A DNA stretch of 64,000 bases from positions 4,472,001 through 4,536,000 of the forward strand of contig NZ_CP004388.1 in the NCBI RefSeq assembly GCF_000300235.2, given 5' to 3'. The notes below the pieces were generated by a model. The model was not told the DNA's origin, did not search any database, and was given only the letters and a program-made list of their open reading frames with translations. Both the position numbers and the translations under genes were made by a program. Positions within the stretch are counted from its first letter, which is position 1. Each line of letters starts with the position of its first letter. Below are positions 34,904-42,409 of this stretch, one piece after another. The stretch is from Thalassospira xiamenensis M-5 = DSM 17429. Lineage in GTDB: Bacteria; Pseudomonadota; Alphaproteobacteria; Rhodospirillales; Thalassospiraceae.

Positions 34904-34993
34904 TCTTGTTTTTCGGGGCTCTTTGTAAACGCTTGTTTAAAACTCGTCGGGTTAGGGTGACGGATCATTTTGCATTTCTTGGGGGAATATCGC

Positions 34994-35557
34994 ATGCGGC
35001 TGGCGGTCGTTATCGGATTTTGTATGCTTGTATCGGGATGCTTTGCATCTGCAAGTACACCAAAACCCAATAGCGGCCTTGAAAGTGACGGCGTTTCGAC
35101 CGTGACCAATGTCAGCTTGCCGTCATCGCGTCTGTTGCCATTTGCCCCCACCGACGAATTTTTGCAATGCGTGCCTTATGCGCGTGCTGTGTCGGGCATT
35201 GAAATTTATGGCGATGCCTGGACATGGTGGGATCAGGCGAAAAATACCTATAACCGGGGCAAAAAACCCGAAGTCGGTGCGGTTCTGGCGCTGAAGAAGA
35301 CATCGCGGTTGAGATACGGGCATGTGGCGGTGGTTGCCGCCATCCTCGACAGTCGCAAGATCATGGTCAATCATGCCAACTGGGGCAGCGATTCGCGTAC
35401 GCGGGGCAAGGTGCATTATCGCCAGCCGGTTGTCGATGTTTCGCCCAATAATGACTGGTCTGAAGTGCGGATGATGAACACGATCGGCACGTTCGGCCGG
35501 GTTTATCCGGCGCATGGCTTTATCTATCAGCCACACGAAACCGCCGAAGCCCACTAG
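34994..35557 (+). CDS. CHAP-domain lipoprotein, probable peptidoglycan amidase
   Basis: A 187-residue secreted protein. A short signal ends in a lipobox, LVSG before Cys16, so it is probably a lipoprotein. The CHAP domain has catalytic Cys59 (LQCVPYARAVSGIEIYG) and His110 (YGHVAVVAAIL), with NHANWG as the later polar residue region. GGGGGA at 34981-34986 supports ATG 34994 over the TTG at 34970. CHAP enzymes cleave peptidoglycan cross-links or stem peptides. It stands alone downstream of the MFS gene. Confidence 0.85.
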   Translation: MRLAVVIGFCMLVSGCFASASTPKPNSGLESDGVSTVTNVSLPSSRLLPFAPTDEFLQCVPYARAVSGIEIYGDAWTWWDQAKNTYNRGKKPEVGAVLALKKTSRLRYGHVAVVAAILDSRKIMVNHANWGSDSRTRGKVHYRQPVVDVSPNNDWSEVRMMNTIGTFGRVYPAHGFIYQPHETAEAH

Positions 35558-37558: not shown

Positions 37559-38209
37559 TCAGGAAAGGGTTTGCGGGCGGGTTTTGGTGCCCGGCTTGGT
37601 GCCAATCCATTTGACGTGGCGTGCAAGGGTGGCGGCGGCGACGTCGAACTGTCTTTCGCGCAGAGCTTTCAGGATGGCGCGGTGATCCTGATCGGTCGGG
37701 GCTTCCCATTCCATGCGGAAGCCGGAAAACAGGAAGCGGGCACTTGCGGCATGCAGATCGTCAATGGTTGCCAGCAGGCGGGGCATGCCGCACGGGGTCA
37801 GGATGAGGCGATGGAAGGCGCGATTGGCTTCTTCCCATGCCCGGACATCGGGGGCATTTTCGCCCGCACGGTTGATCGCCTCTGCCTCGTCGAGAATGGC
37901 GCTGGTCAGGTGCGGGGCGGCATGGCGAAGGGCGAGGACTTCGAGGGATGCGCGCATTTCAGCGACTTCGCGGACTTCTGCGATATCAAAGCTGGCAACC
38001 CGAACACCGCGGCGCGGTTCGCTGACGACCAGCCCCTGTGCTTCGAGGCGACGAAAAGCCTCGCGAACCGGCACGTGGCTTGCGCCGAATTCCTCGGCAA
38101 AATGGTCCTGCCGCAATTTCGTGCCCGGCGCGATATGCCCGGCGATGATGCGGTCAGCCAGTTCGCGGGTGATCCTGCCGGTAACGGTATTATCAATGCC
38201 ACTTTTCAT
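37559..38209 (-). CDS. bioR: Biotin repressor BioR (GntR/FCD family)
   Basis: BioR represses biotin genes in alphaproteobacteria that lack a DNA-binding BirA. The 216-residue protein has a winged helix (HFAEEFGASHVPVREAFRRL) and an FCD domain with ANRAFHRLILTPCGMPRLL. The identification rests on context: it lies beside bioYB, and exact BioR boxes occur before bioY and just before its own start. The small molecule it senses is not settled in the literature known to me. Confidence 0.88.
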   Translation of the reverse strand: MKSGIDNTVTGRITRELADRIIAGHIAPGTKLRQDHFAEEFGASHVPVREAFRRLEAQGLVVSEPRRGVRVASFDIAEVREVAEMRASLEVLALRHAAPHLTSAILDEAEAINRAGENAPDVRAWEEANRAFHRLILTPCGMPRLLATIDDLHAASARFLFSGFRMEWEAPTDQDHRAILKALRERQFDVAAATLARHVKWIGTKPGTKTRPQTLS

Positions 38210-38223: not shown

Positions 38224-38289
38224 TTTGCGCGCCCGATTTTGTCGAGCACGCATATCCGTAACCGGTAAATTAATCGTGCGATATCAGGT

Positions 38290-39036
38290 TTAACAGTCCG
38301 GCGCACAATGTTCGTCGGGCATATCGGCGAATGCTTCGCGCAATGCCTGCGACCAGGCGTCCGAAAGGGCCTTGAACCCGGCATCTTCGGCATCAATCCG
38401 GCGATGTTCGGAGAATTGGCACGATCCATCGGGCAGGACGGCAAGATCAAGCGGCATGCCGACTGAAAGGTTCGAACGCAATGTTGAATCCATCGACAGC
38501 AATGCGGCTTTGACGCCATCGGCAATTGGCGTTTCCGGGGTGATCACGCGATCAAGGATCGGTTTGCCGTATTTATGTTCGCCGATCTGAAGATAGGGGG
38601 TGTCTTCGGTGGCCTCTATAAAGTTGCCTGCCGCATAGACCAGAAACAGGCGCTGAGCTCCGCCCTTGCGCTGCCCGCCGACCATGATCGAGGCGGAGCT
38701 GCTTTCCTTGCGCTGTTCAAGGGTGTCCTGATATTTGTGCTGAACTTTCTGCATCGCCTCGCCCATCAGTTCAGCGACGCGAAACATGCTGGGCGCGCTC
38801 AGGATACAGTCGCCCGGTTCGGTTTCCGGGTTGTCGATGGCTTCCTGCAGGGTGCTCATGACTGCCTGCGTGATCGCGAGGTTGCCCGCCGTCAAAGCCA
38901 CGATGGCGCGTTCGCCGGGGACTTCCCAGGTGAACATCTTGCGATAACGCGAAATGTTATCAAGCCCGGCATTGGTTCGGGTGTCGGAGAGGAACACCAT
39001 CCCCTCATCAAGCATCAAGCCCACGCAGTAGGTCAT
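38290..39036 (-). CDS. Anbu-type bacterial proteasome homologue
   Basis: Anbu (also called BPH-like or proteasome-type protease) is an Ntn hydrolase related to HslV and 20S beta subunits. The 248-residue protein starts MTYCVGLMLDEGMVFLSD, so Thr2 would be the N-terminal nucleophile after removal of Met. Further family features are SDTRTNAGLDNISRYRKM with a Lys near residue 33, and ALTAGNLAITQAVM. There is no ATPase partner gene nearby. It is the last gene of the ATP-grasp/alpha-E/transglutaminase/Anbu operon, 19 bases after the transglutaminase stop. Known Anbu structures form open rings or helices; no natural substrate is established to my knowledge. Confidence 0.9.
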   Translation of the reverse strand: MTYCVGLMLDEGMVFLSDTRTNAGLDNISRYRKMFTWEVPGERAIVALTAGNLAITQAVMSTLQEAIDNPETEPGDCILSAPSMFRVAELMGEAMQKVQHKYQDTLEQRKESSSASIMVGGQRKGGAQRLFLVYAAGNFIEATEDTPYLQIGEHKYGKPILDRVITPETPIADGVKAALLSMDSTLRSNLSVGMPLDLAVLPDGSCQFSEHRRIDAEDAGFKALSDAWSQALREAFADMPDEHCAPDC

Positions 39037-39055
39037 ATTCTATTCTCGGGTCCGG

Positions 39056-39874
39056 CTATTGCTGTGATTGCGCAACGATGACTGTTACATCCAAATCCTC
39101 GTTTGCACCACCAGTATGTACACCCCGTATAGGTGTGGCACCCTGTGCATCAAGTCCAGACCCCAGACGAATATAATAATCGGTCGGGCAGCAGCGGTTT
39201 GCCGGGTCAAACCCGACCCAGCCCAGTTCGGGCAAATGCAGTTCCGCCCACGCATGGGATGCTTCGTGTGATTTGCCATCCTGATCGGCAAACAGATAAC
39301 CCGATACATAGCGTGCGGGAATGCCAAGATGGCGGGCGGCCGAAATCATGACATGGGCGTGATCCTGACAGACGCCCTGACCATCGGCCAAGGCATCGGC
39401 CGCGGTGGTATGGACATGGGTGCTGCCCGGGACATAGGCGACGGCATCGGACACGGCTGCCGAAAGGGCGTGGGCCCGTTCAAGCAGGTTATCCGGGCTG
39501 GTTTTCTTTTCGACTTTGGCGGCGAGTTTGCGGATCGCGGCACTGGATTTGGTGACCGGGGTCGAGCGTAGGAACACCGCAGGAAAGGCGCGTTCCTTAT
39601 GCCCGCGAAGCATGCCGGTGGTATCGGTGGTTTCGACTTCGCCGGACACAACGACATCAACAGAATCAACTGGCCCGGTTGCGGTCAGCGTGCTGATGGT
39701 GTCGCCATTGCCATCGACAAATTCGGAATTGATGACGCATCCCTCGGCCTTGATCGACCAGCGGATGATTTTCTGTCCGTCAAACAGGGACGGCGTAAGC
39801 TTTAGACTTTGCACGACATAGCGTGCCGACGGGGAAAACCGATAATGGGTGCGGTGTTCAACAGTCAGGCGCAT
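39056..39874 (-). CDS. Transglutaminase-like cysteine protein of the Anbu operon
   Basis: The 272-residue protein has an N-terminal Bact_transglu_N beta domain (MRLTVEHRTHYRFSPSARYV) and a transglutaminase-like core with a catalytic triad: Cys169 (GQGVCQDHAHV), His207 (ASHAWAELHLP) and Asp223 (GFDPANR). There is no signal peptide, so it should act in the cytoplasm. Such proteins are usually peptidases or amidases rather than cross-linkers. ATG 39874 lies 1 base after the alpha-E stop; a longer frame to 39907 overlaps that gene. The role in the operon is unknown. Confidence 0.88.
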   Translation of the reverse strand: MRLTVEHRTHYRFSPSARYVVQSLKLTPSLFDGQKIIRWSIKAEGCVINSEFVDGNGDTISTLTATGPVDSVDVVVSGEVETTDTTGMLRGHKERAFPAVFLRSTPVTKSSAAIRKLAAKVEKKTSPDNLLERAHALSAAVSDAVAYVPGSTHVHTTAADALADGQGVCQDHAHVMISAARHLGIPARYVSGYLFADQDGKSHEASHAWAELHLPELGWVGFDPANRCCPTDYYIRLGSGLDAQGATPIRGVHTGGANEDLDVTVIVAQSQQ

Positions 39875-39875
39875 C

Positions 39876-40823
39876 TTACTGGCCCCCGAAATAATAGGTT
39901 TCGGCAATTGCCGATGACAGGGTCTGATTTCGTTTGAGAAAATCAGACAGGAATTCGTGAAGGCCCTGGCTGAAAATTTCGTCCATGCGGGTTTGGGTCA
40001 GCAGGGAATATGTTTCTACTGCCAGGCTGTGCACCGGGCTTCGTTGGCCGTAATGGCGGGCCAGATGTTCCAGATGGTTGGTGATCTGTTCCGAACAATG
40101 GGCCAGCGACCGGGGGCTGAAAGGATTGAGGATCAGGAAGTGCGCGATGTGATAGGGTGAATAATCATCGCGATAAACCCAGTGGAAGGCACGCAGGGAT
40201 GATGCCGCCCGCAGAACCGTCGTCCATTGGTAATTATCGACACCGTCGCCGACCATACTGGTTTCGGGTAGCAGGACATAATATTTCACGTCAAGCAATC
40301 GTGCGGTGTTATCGGCGCGTTCGATAAAAATGCCAAGACGGATGAAATCGTACCCGTCGTTGCGCAGGATTGTTGAGTCGGTCGCGCCGCGAAACAAGGC
40401 ACCCTGCCGTTTGACCCAGTCGATGAATTCAGGCAGATCGGTTTTTGCAAGGTTATGCATTGCCGTTCGGCGCAATTCCATCAGGGCATTGTTCAATGCT
40501 TCCCACATTTCGGCGGTGATGGCGGTACGCATGGCGCGCGCGTTGGCGCGTGCATTTTCAAAACAGTTCAGGATCGAAGACGAATTATCGCGATTGAAGA
40601 TCAGGTAATCGGCAACTTCGGCCTGACGGAGTGGCATGTCGGGATCATAGCCCTGTGCGCAGCCCGAGGCCGAGAGAACCGACGCCCATTCTGACCGGTT
40701 GCCGTCGCCGGCGGCCGGCATCAGGGCCATGCGATAGCCCATTTCCATCAGTCGGGCCATGTTTTCGGCCCGTTCCACATAACGCGACAACCAGAAAAGG
40801 TTGTCTGCTGTACGACTAAGCAT
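39876..40823 (-). CDS. Alpha-E domain protein (DUF403) of the Anbu operon
   Basis: The 315-residue protein is all-helical by its sequence character and begins with the family signature MLSRTADNLFWLSRYVERAE, which is present in nearly all alpha-E proteins. No catalytic motif is visible, and the biochemical function of the domain is unknown. It lies between the ATP-grasp gene (18 bases upstream) and the transglutaminase gene. Where found, it is almost always encoded with these partners or fused to the ATP-grasp protein. Confidence 0.88.
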   Translation of the reverse strand: MLSRTADNLFWLSRYVERAENMARLMEMGYRMALMPAAGDGNRSEWASVLSASGCAQGYDPDMPLRQAEVADYLIFNRDNSSSILNCFENARANARAMRTAITAEMWEALNNALMELRRTAMHNLAKTDLPEFIDWVKRQGALFRGATDSTILRNDGYDFIRLGIFIERADNTARLLDVKYYVLLPETSMVGDGVDNYQWTTVLRAASSLRAFHWVYRDDYSPYHIAHFLILNPFSPRSLAHCSEQITNHLEHLARHYGQRSPVHSLAVETYSLLTQTRMDEIFSQGLHEFLSDFLKRNQTLSSAIAETYYFGGQ

Positions 40824-40841
40824 GTGACTTCCCTTTCTTCT

Positions 40842-42245
40842 CTACTCGGCCATGATCCAGGTGTCTTTTACCCCGCCGCCCTGCGACGAGTTGACGACTA
40901 GTGATCCTTCGCGCATGGCAACGCGGGTCAGGCCGCCCGGCGTCAGCCGGATGTCATCGCCGACAAGGCAGAAGGGGCGGAAATCGACATGGCGCGGGGC
41001 GATACCGCTTTCAACGAAGGTTGGACAGGCAGAAAGGGCAAGGGTCGGCTGGGCGATGAAATCGCCCGGATCGGCCTTGATGCGTTCGGCATAGGTAGCC
41101 TGTTCTTCCTTTGTCGATGCCGGGCCGACCAGCATGCCGTAACCGCCCGAACCATGGACTTCCTTGACGACCAGTTCGCCAAGGTTTTCCAGAACATATT
41201 TCAGGTCGTCCGGGTTGGCGCATTTCCATGTCGGTACGTTATTCAGGATCGGTTCCTGCCCAAGGTAAAACCGGATCATGTCGGGCACATAGGTATAGAT
41301 TGCCTTATCGTCGGCAACACCGGCGCCCGGTGCCGAACAGATCGCAACCCCGCCTGATCGATAGACATTCATCAGGCCGGGAACGCCCAGCACGGAATCG
41401 GGCCGGAAACAGAGCGGATCGATAAAGGCATCGTCGATCCGGCGATAAATCACATCAACCCGGGCGGGCCCGCGCGTTGTGCGCATATAGACGCGGCCTT
41501 CGGACACGAACAGATCCTGCCCCTCGACAAGTTCAACACCCATCTGGTCGGCAAGGAAGGAATGTTCGTAATAGGCGCTGTTCATTGCACCCGGTGTAAG
41601 GACCACGATATTTGGCTCGCGATCGCACCGTTTGGGCGCGATGCTTTTGAGCGTCTTATGGAGCATGTCCGGATAGCTTTCGACCGGTTCGATCCGTAAT
41701 TTCGAAAACAGTTCCGGGAACATCCGCATCATGATTTCGCGGTTTTCCAACATATAGGAAACGCCAGACGGGGTGCGGCAGTTATCTTCCAGCACATAGA
41801 AATCATCCGGGCCGACGCGCACGACATCAACGCCGACAATGTGGCTATAGACCTTGCGCGGGGGATCGATGCCGATCACGGCCGGCTCAAACGCGGCGTT
41901 CCTGAACACCAGATCGGCGGGGATGATCCCGGCCTTGATGATTTCGGCGTTGTGATAGACGTCATACAGGAAGGTGTTGAGCGCGCGTGCGCGCTGCTTG
42001 ACGCCGCGTTCGAGCTTGCGCCATTCCGTGGCGGTGAAAATACGTGGAATAAGATCGAACGGAATCAGCCGTTCCGGATCGCCACCTTCGCCATAGACCG
42101 CGAAGGTGATGCCGATTTTGCGAAAAAGAGTTTCTGCCTCTAGTCGCTTCTGCTGGAGGGTTTCGGGCCCGCTGGCCTCCATCCAGTCAACCAGTGCGCG
42201 ATAAGGTTCGCGTACTTCATCGTTCATCATCATTTCGTTGAACAT
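40842..42245 (-). CDS. Circularly permuted type 2 ATP-grasp protein of the Anbu operon
   Basis: The 467-residue protein belongs to the DUF404/DUF407 ATP-grasp group, in which the domain order is permuted. Features are PFDLIPRIFTATEWRKLERG, FYVLEDNCRTPSGVSYMLEN, the Mg/ATP-binding stretch VVKEVHGSGGYGMLVGP and, near the end, RLTPGGLTRVA. The family is predicted to form amide or peptide bonds (carboxylate-amine ligase), without known substrate. A GTG at 42251 is possible, but ATG 42245 is best placed relative to GGGGAG (42251-42256). That Shine-Dalgarno lies in a strong leader hairpin. First gene of the operon. Confidence 0.9.
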   Translation of the reverse strand: MFNEMMMNDEVREPYRALVDWMEASGPETLQQKRLEAETLFRKIGITFAVYGEGGDPERLIPFDLIPRIFTATEWRKLERGVKQRARALNTFLYDVYHNAEIIKAGIIPADLVFRNAAFEPAVIGIDPPRKVYSHIVGVDVVRVGPDDFYVLEDNCRTPSGVSYMLENREIMMRMFPELFSKLRIEPVESYPDMLHKTLKSIAPKRCDREPNIVVLTPGAMNSAYYEHSFLADQMGVELVEGQDLFVSEGRVYMRTTRGPARVDVIYRRIDDAFIDPLCFRPDSVLGVPGLMNVYRSGGVAICSAPGAGVADDKAIYTYVPDMIRFYLGQEPILNNVPTWKCANPDDLKYVLENLGELVVKEVHGSGGYGMLVGPASTKEEQATYAERIKADPGDFIAQPTLALSACPTFVESGIAPRHVDFRPFCLVGDDIRLTPGGLTRVAMREGSLVVNSSQGGGVKDTWIMAE

Positions 42246-42252
42246 GCACACT

Positions 42253-42293
42253 CCCCTTGCTTATCCTTTGATTAAAGGCGGTGCTGCAAGGGG
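42253..42293 (-). promoter_or_regulatory. Leader hairpin hiding the Shine-Dalgarno of the Anbu operon
   Basis: On the transcript, CCCCTTGC pairs perfectly over 8 bp with GCAAGGGG (42286-42293 with 42253-42260), and the 3' arm holds the GGGG of the ribosome site. Inside, CCTTT/AAAGG (42274-42278 with 42265-42269) forms a second 5-bp stem with a 4-nt loop. No T-run follows. A translational switch is inferred; the trigger is unknown. Confidence 0.6.
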
Positions 42294-42409
42294 CGGTCAA
42301 GCATGTTCACGGTTGAAATGTTTCTTTTTTCAGCAAAAACAGGATTTGCTGAAAATATGGGCCGGGTCGTCTAACTGATTGTGCAAAAAACGGGCGTTTT
42401 ACAGTTCGG

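Follow-up and report, generated by a model that had tools for sequence, protein, structure and literature searches.

The window, a stretch of 64,000 nucleotides from Thalassospira xiamenensis M-5 = DSM 17429 (contig NZ_CP004388.1, positions 4,472,001 to 4,536,000), contains a canonical, already described Anbu operon, with four intact genes on the minus strand running from 42245 to 38290: a circularly permuted ATP-grasp ligase, an alpha-E protein, a transglutaminase-like protein and the proteasome relative Anbu. Comparison across genomes shows that the ATP-grasp/alpha-E pair is the core of this system, that Anbu depends on the pair and not the reverse, and that the transglutaminase-like gene is optional. 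This dependency pattern, the optional transglutaminase, a difference in promoters and the duplication within alpha-E are what is added here to the published operon. The four genes are as follows.

40842-42245, minus strand: circularly permuted ATP-grasp ligase (467 amino acids)
39876-40823, minus strand: alpha-E protein (315 amino acids; PF04168, E-value 2.5e-96), an internal duplication with two halves of ~150 amino acids
39056-39874, minus strand: transglutaminase-like cysteine hydrolase (272 amino acids; PF01841, 2e-24, and PF08379, 1.1e-13), with the triad C169/H207/D223
38290-39036, minus strand: Anbu, a proteasome-like N-terminal nucleophile (Ntn) hydrolase (248 amino acids; assigned by phmmer and by T2, D18 and K33), in which removal of the start Met would expose Thr2

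The gaps between the genes are 18, 1 and 19 bases, in agreement with the preliminary description of this DNA, which had noted a same-strand run of four genes with gaps of 1 to 19 bases. Pfam scores are all above the curated cut-offs: for ATP-grasp, 553 bits with PF14403 and 505 with PF04174; for alpha-E, 323 bits with PF04168 (cut-off 20.8); for the transglutaminase-like protein, 86 with PF01841 and 52 with PF08379; for Anbu, 28.5 with PF00227. At E 0.001, no NCBIfam model matches any of the four proteins. In the genome itself, Anbu, PF14403, PF04168 and PF08379 give a single match each. The gene order is identical in the 27 relatives of the genus with a fetched locus (27/27). Purifying selection acts on each of the four genes within the genus, the median ratio of nonsynonymous to synonymous substitution rates (dN/dS; 27 comparisons per gene) being 0.041 for ATP-grasp, 0.058 for Anbu, 0.066 for alpha-E and 0.124 for the transglutaminase. 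The arrangement is not due to chance, since the order is kept throughout these relatives, the matches in the genome are single and the median dN/dS lies between 0.04 and 0.12.

Anbu occurs mostly in a four-gene operon with the fixed order ATP-grasp, alpha-E, transglutaminase-like protein and Anbu (PMC6376114), and the operons described (e.g., in Yersinia bercovieri and Pseudomonas; PMC6376114, PMC5666114) have the same genes, order and catalytic residues, again with no adjoining AAA+ partner. The ATP-grasp of the operon releases phosphate from ATP, and the roles proposed for the operon are unconfirmed (PMC6376114). Epoxomicin and MG132 bind to Anbu at Thr1, and the protein shows no activity on many substrates (casein and fluorogenic peptides among them), has no AAA+ partner and is induced in nitrogen-limited P. 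putida (PMC5666114). The identification as an Anbu operon and the statement that it has no known substrate, both made in the preliminary description, agree with these sources. A literature search that had most subscription journals outside its reach found no experimental function of Anbu or alpha-E. With both the composition and the gap concerning the substrate already in print, this operon represents a known type of system.

A core pair and an optional hydrolase

Anbu is present in all genomes of the genus (29/29). In a draw of 114 genomes of the class, 34 have Anbu and 43 have alpha-E, with alpha-E found in 34/34 of the Anbu genomes versus 9/80 of the others (p 5e-21); nine genomes of this draw thus have alpha-E without Anbu. 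In a draw from the phylum, Anbu occurs in 166/396 genomes, and alpha-E is present in all of the 80 that were examined. Gene order was followed in a census of 105 loci, made of 25 Anbu loci of the class and those 80 of the 166 Anbu-positive genomes drawn from the phylum, a selection of ours with a single genome for each genus that left other genera aside. The genus of the window (with its genome G134, in which Anbu is split on a short contig), eight genomes with a divergent Anbu and second Anbu copies (L162, L163) lie outside the census. At 83/105 loci, Anbu is preceded on its own strand by ATP-grasp and alpha-E. In the remaining 22 genomes and the eight with a divergent Anbu, ATP-grasp is found in 30/30, each time with an adjoining alpha-E as judged from coordinates. 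ATP-grasp and alpha-E therefore belong together, and Anbu was never met without the pair in the 114 Anbu genomes examined, that of the window included (114/114).

The preliminary description implied an equal partnership of the four genes, which does not hold for the transglutaminase. Among the 83 operons, the triad is intact in 72, the gene is missing in eight (no copy in the 1.8 kb ahead of Anbu) and the Cys is replaced by Tyr or Pro in three, so that the protein is missing or Cys-less in 11/83. At seven of the eight loci without the gene, none occurs anywhere in the 13-16 kb fetched; at the eighth (G076), a long one adjoins the operon on the opposite strand. The transglutaminase is thus dispensable in the operon.

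A second, lower-scoring alpha-E copy occurs in 19 genomes of the class and in 37/80 of the others, always beside the first, higher-scoring copy in the same genome. It sits in a frame of at least 790 amino acids except in G054 (a frame of 393 amino acids) and G106, two genomes in which it is not clearly fused. In the genomes where ATP-grasp was also searched, ATP-grasp and the second alpha-E share one long frame (19/19), and for this reason we call the second system fused. Long transglutaminase genes lie near the fused system in the examples inspected.

The second copy is present in 9/11 genomes with a lost or Cys-less transglutaminase versus 22/72 of the others (p 0.0018; 9/11 versus 21/72, p 0.0013, when G054 is not counted). 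With one genome per family and both samples, the median p is 0.003. The discovery sample, from the class, gives 6/7 versus 2/13 (p 0.004), and the new sample alone 3/4 versus 20/59 (p 0.13), which is not significant; the link is thus a lead and not a result. G076 and G167 are exceptions to the pattern. The second system is also more frequent where Anbu lies apart from the pair (16/22 versus 31/83, p 0.004), with a median p of 0.21 for one genome per family.

Residues and folds of the four proteins

The Anbu of the window aligns with the Anbu structure 5nyj over residues 1-239 (phmmer E-value 3.3e-71), which amounts to full-length homology, and further matches to solved structures are 5loy (deposited as Designed Anbu Protein; 4.9e-84), 5nyf (1.2e-70) and 5lox (9.2e-63). 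The Thr directly follows the start Met, with no propeptide, and T2, D18 and K33 correspond to Thr1, Asp17 and Lys32 in the Thr1 numbering. HslV and the 20S proteasome beta subunits likewise have an Ntn Thr nucleophile with active-site Asp and Lys. Unlike them, Anbu has no adjoining unfoldase gene, and the published Anbu forms a split ring. The absence of an adjoining AAA+ gene, already noted in the preliminary description, holds for the eight neighbouring genes scanned; no search for an unfoldase was made in the rest of the genome. By reading of the N-termini (by eye, with no predictor), none of the proteins has a signal peptide, again as described before.

In aligned Anbu sequences, the nucleophile is Thr in 105/106 and the Asp and Lys are kept in 106/106. 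The sole case with Ser at the nucleophile position is L219:7060 (G159), which starts with MSYC. In contig C100 of G134, an incomplete genome of the genus, Anbu is in two pieces (L090, L091) on a contig of 6 kb, either by an assembly error or by decay.

The transglutaminase-like protein carries a Cys-His-Asp triad together with PF08379 and PF01841, as expected for the bacterial transglutaminase-like class. The preliminary description gave this triad and the Thr2 of Anbu as intact, which the residues of the window bear out, and it looked to losses of either in close relatives as a sign against itself. In the genus no such loss is seen, since C169/H207/D223 and Thr2 are both kept in 27/27 relatives, whereas distant homologues do have losses. 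In a set of 55 transglutaminase homologues (27 from the genus), the Cys is absent in four (L127, L137, L152, L156), the Asp in L171, and the His is kept in 55/55. This set overlaps in part with the 83 operons, in which one further Cys loss occurs. Taken as a whole, the earlier interpretation is partly supported.

The alpha-E protein is helical with paired ER motifs (E17-R18 and E168-R169) and a conserved set of arginines. Its two halves align to each other (hhalign probability 98.9, E-value 1.3e-17), and the protein is thus an internal duplication. No mention of a duplication was found in a literature search that excluded the key comparative paper (Iyer 2009). The AlphaFold2 model is of high confidence (predicted local distance difference test, pLDDT, 91.8), and no good match to it was found among the solved structures compared. 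In G442 (C1, 4515546-4515754), two extra short matches to alpha-E positions 1-23 immediately precede the alpha-E gene, which looks as though its start were repeated.

The ATP-grasp protein is a CP-ATP-grasp of type 2 (PF14403) by its profile score above the cut-off and by its fold. Among characterised proteins, those closest to it in structure are glutathione-type synthetases and peptide-polyamine ligases. The structure 3n6x of Methylobacillus flagellatus is named a putative glutathionylspermidine synthase, a name that is the annotation of its depositors. Glutathionylspermidine synthetase/amidase, YgiC/YjfC and trypanothione synthetase have 8-12% identity to the ATP-grasp protein, with their sequence family unmatched; the likeness to glutathionylspermidine synthase is, from the structural comparison, one of fold alone. 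In glutathionylspermidine synthetase/amidase, a CHAP-type amidase is fused to the synthetase. We know of no Anbu or alpha-E alongside these three kinds of enzyme.

Promoters, nitrogen control and flanking genes

Three features precede the operon.

42271-42301, minus strand: conserved promoter block CTTGACC-N18-TTTAATC, sigma70-like (28 genus leaders)
42251-42258, minus strand: Shine-Dalgarno-like AAGGGGAG ahead of the ATG of ATP-grasp, read in the sequence and similar in genus leaders
42327-42355, minus strand: AT-rich inverted repeat TTTTCAGCA...TGCTGAAAA, upstream of the promoter, partly kept in the main genus clade

Of the 28 leaders aligned for the genus, that of the window among them, all have CTTGACC and 27 have CCTTTAATC, with a spacer between the hexamers of 18 bases in 27 and 17 in one. 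The block resembles a sigma70-type promoter; a strict consensus scan misses it, since the scan requires an A at position 2 of the -10 element. Alternatively, it could be of the RpoH type, going by what we take that motif to be. Some paired changes occur in the inverted repeat in the main genus clade, and the repeat is a possible operator. A leader hairpin CCCCTTGC...GCAAGGGG over the Shine-Dalgarno was considered as a regulatory RNA and rejected, its left arm lying within the promoter spacer and being unconserved (e.g., in L094 and L096).

The gene content equals that of the published operon, and the genus differs in having the conserved sigma70-like promoter and no sigma54-like site. Sites of the latter type were scored with the sigma54 consensus at 10/12 positions, with GG and GC fixed (GG-N10-GC), up to 250 bases upstream of ATP-grasp. 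They precede ATP-grasp at 11/65 loci of the class outside the genus and at 8/22 loci outside the class, with 0.5 expected in each case from control windows at the loci themselves. These 87 loci comprise the 83 operons and four loci with ATP-grasp apart from Anbu. NtrC-like sites are inconsistent in the relatives that carry a sigma54-like site. A nitrogen (sigma54) promoter was rejected for this genus at the threshold given, in the window as in the 27 relatives.

COG3484, which we read as Anbu, is listed as a member of sigma54 regulons in alpha-, beta- and gammaproteobacteria (PMC12316311). In B. cenocepacia, a cluster with DUF404/DUF407, DUF403 and two transglutaminase-like genes is NtrC-dependent (PMC5491218). 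Nitrogen limitation raises the transglutaminase-like PP2686 of P. putida, along with the neighbouring PP2685 and PP2687 (PMC3325844), and our guess is that PP2685-PP2687 belong to such a cluster. In some relatives, then, the operon is probably under nitrogen control through sigma54. This link is partly known in print, and its absence from the genus was not found mentioned in the literature searched.

Downstream of Anbu, the GntR/FCD gene at 37559-38209 was rejected as a member of the operon: clustered relatives occur at 13/28 genus loci, counting the window, and at none of the other Anbu loci, and its own palindrome precedes it. This palindrome, TGCGTGCTCGACAAAATCGGGCGCGCA then AATTATCTATAAAAT at 38226-38252 between Anbu and the GntR/FCD gene, is similar in several members of the genus and may be the region through which the GntR gene is controlled. 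The upstream cobalamin genes are a matter of local synteny, since the first of them is conserved at 28 loci of the genus and has one occurrence elsewhere. Clustering of flanking open reading frames of at least 100 amino acids gave one cluster across 56 genera, judged to be frames on the antisense strand of the operon. In 11 genera there is an ABC-transporter-like cluster and in 10 a short-chain-dehydrogenase-like one, both of these gene kinds being common. In six genera with Anbu apart from ATP-grasp/alpha-E, the flank of Anbu holds a gene of family f142, which we take to be MutS-like from its sequence; at locus L218 it adjoins Anbu. Elsewhere in the window, on the opposite strand near biotin genes, 34970-35557 encodes a CHAP-domain protein with a lipoprotein-like N-terminus by eye.

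Possible roles of the operon

As to the reaction, its substrates and products, the order of the steps and their purpose, we infer the following scheme, which we prefer tentatively as quite possible and short of probable: the ligase would make peptide-amine conjugates, and the cysteine hydrolase and Anbu would break them down, in an economy of nitrogen. ATP-grasp would join the carboxylate of a peptide (or of a protein C-terminus) to an amine, possibly a polyamine or an amino acid, as an amide bond, and alpha-E would be either an obligate partner subunit of the ligase or a holder of its substrate. The transglutaminase-like protein would act as a cysteine amidase or peptidase that reverses or trims the amide bond, a role parallel to that of the amidase half of the bifunctional glutathionylspermidine synthetase/amidase. 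Downstream of the ligase, Anbu would be an N-terminal-Thr hydrolase degrading or releasing the conjugated peptide, with no need of an AAA+ unfoldase since its proposed substrates would be small or unfolded. Nitrogen shortage would switch the operon on through sigma54 in some relatives, with the sigma70-like promoter serving instead in this genus. The dependence of Anbu on the ligase, and not the reverse, together with the fold class, supports this scheme, and the fold suggests peptide-amine bonds.

Several points weigh against this scheme. No substrate or amide product has been demonstrated so far, and published tests detected neither peptidase activity of Anbu on standard substrates nor a specific or stable complex among the proteins of the operon (PMC6376114, PMC5666114). 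Membership of a fold class leaves the choice of substrate wide, since glutathione synthetases act on amino acids and not on polyamines, and at E 0.001 the ATP-grasp protein matches only PF14403 and PF04174 and not the Pfam family of glutathionylspermidine synthase. The hydrolase step is not universal, because G167, G214 and G342 have no PF08379 protein despite having Anbu, ATP-grasp and alpha-E. The sigma54-like sites, although enriched in relatives (19/87), are absent at the threshold from the remaining 68/87, and in the genus there is none within 250 bases in the 27 relatives (0/27) or within 400 bases with the window included (0/28).

A small analogue of the ubiquitin or Pup systems, in which ATP-grasp marks proteins with a peptide or an amino acid, Anbu degrades the proteins so tagged and the transglutaminase takes off or edits the tag, has been proposed in print (PMC6376114). 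The dependence of Anbu on the ligase pair would suit it, as would the binding of epoxomicin and MG132 at Thr1, and the authors of PMC5666114 favour protein degradation. However, none of the eight neighbouring genes scanned encodes an unfoldase, the published Anbu is an open split ring with no peptidase activity detected, and the flanks show no recurrent gene for a small tag protein, where a short tag could be missed with frames of at least 100 amino acids. We regard protein tagging as rather unlikely.

A fuller form of the peptide-amine scheme is speculative, and we think it unlikely in all its parts. Here ATP-grasp and alpha-E would together form a peptide-amine (peptidyl-polyamine) ligase of two subunits, which stores or tags nitrogen in the form of peptide conjugates, with alpha-E holding an acidic or acyl-phosphate substrate, and Anbu would be a dedicated conjugate hydrolase and not a general protease. 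The transglutaminase activity would be shared with the fused ATP-grasp/alpha-E system found in many relatives, both systems making the same type of bond; the three genomes with no PF08379 protein do not fit such sharing in trans.

It is quite unlikely, in our judgment, that the operon makes a small modified peptide or metabolite in the manner of a natural-product pathway, with Anbu as its maturation peptidase. The ligase fold class does make free peptides such as glutathione and homoglutathione, and Iyer et al. 2009, as cited in PMC5666114, hints at peptide synthesis, but the recurrent flanking genes (frames of at least 100 amino acids) included no recognisable precursor gene or exporter, and the authors of PMC5666114 rate such a role less likely. 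General protein turnover in nitrogen starvation by Anbu alone, with the other genes only co-regulated, is slightly less likely still: Anbu does lie outside the standard arrangement with ATP-grasp/alpha-E at 22/105 loci, and the sigma54-like sites and the published nitrogen-limitation data would agree with it, but Anbu was not met without the pair in any genome examined (114/114), and casein and fluorogenic peptides are left uncleaved (PMC5666114).

Anbu is a proteasome relative with solved structures and no known job, and the present comparison narrows the question of what that job is. The dependency pattern, together with a ligase fold that points to peptide-amine bonds, names concrete substrates to try and predicts which deletions would share a phenotype.

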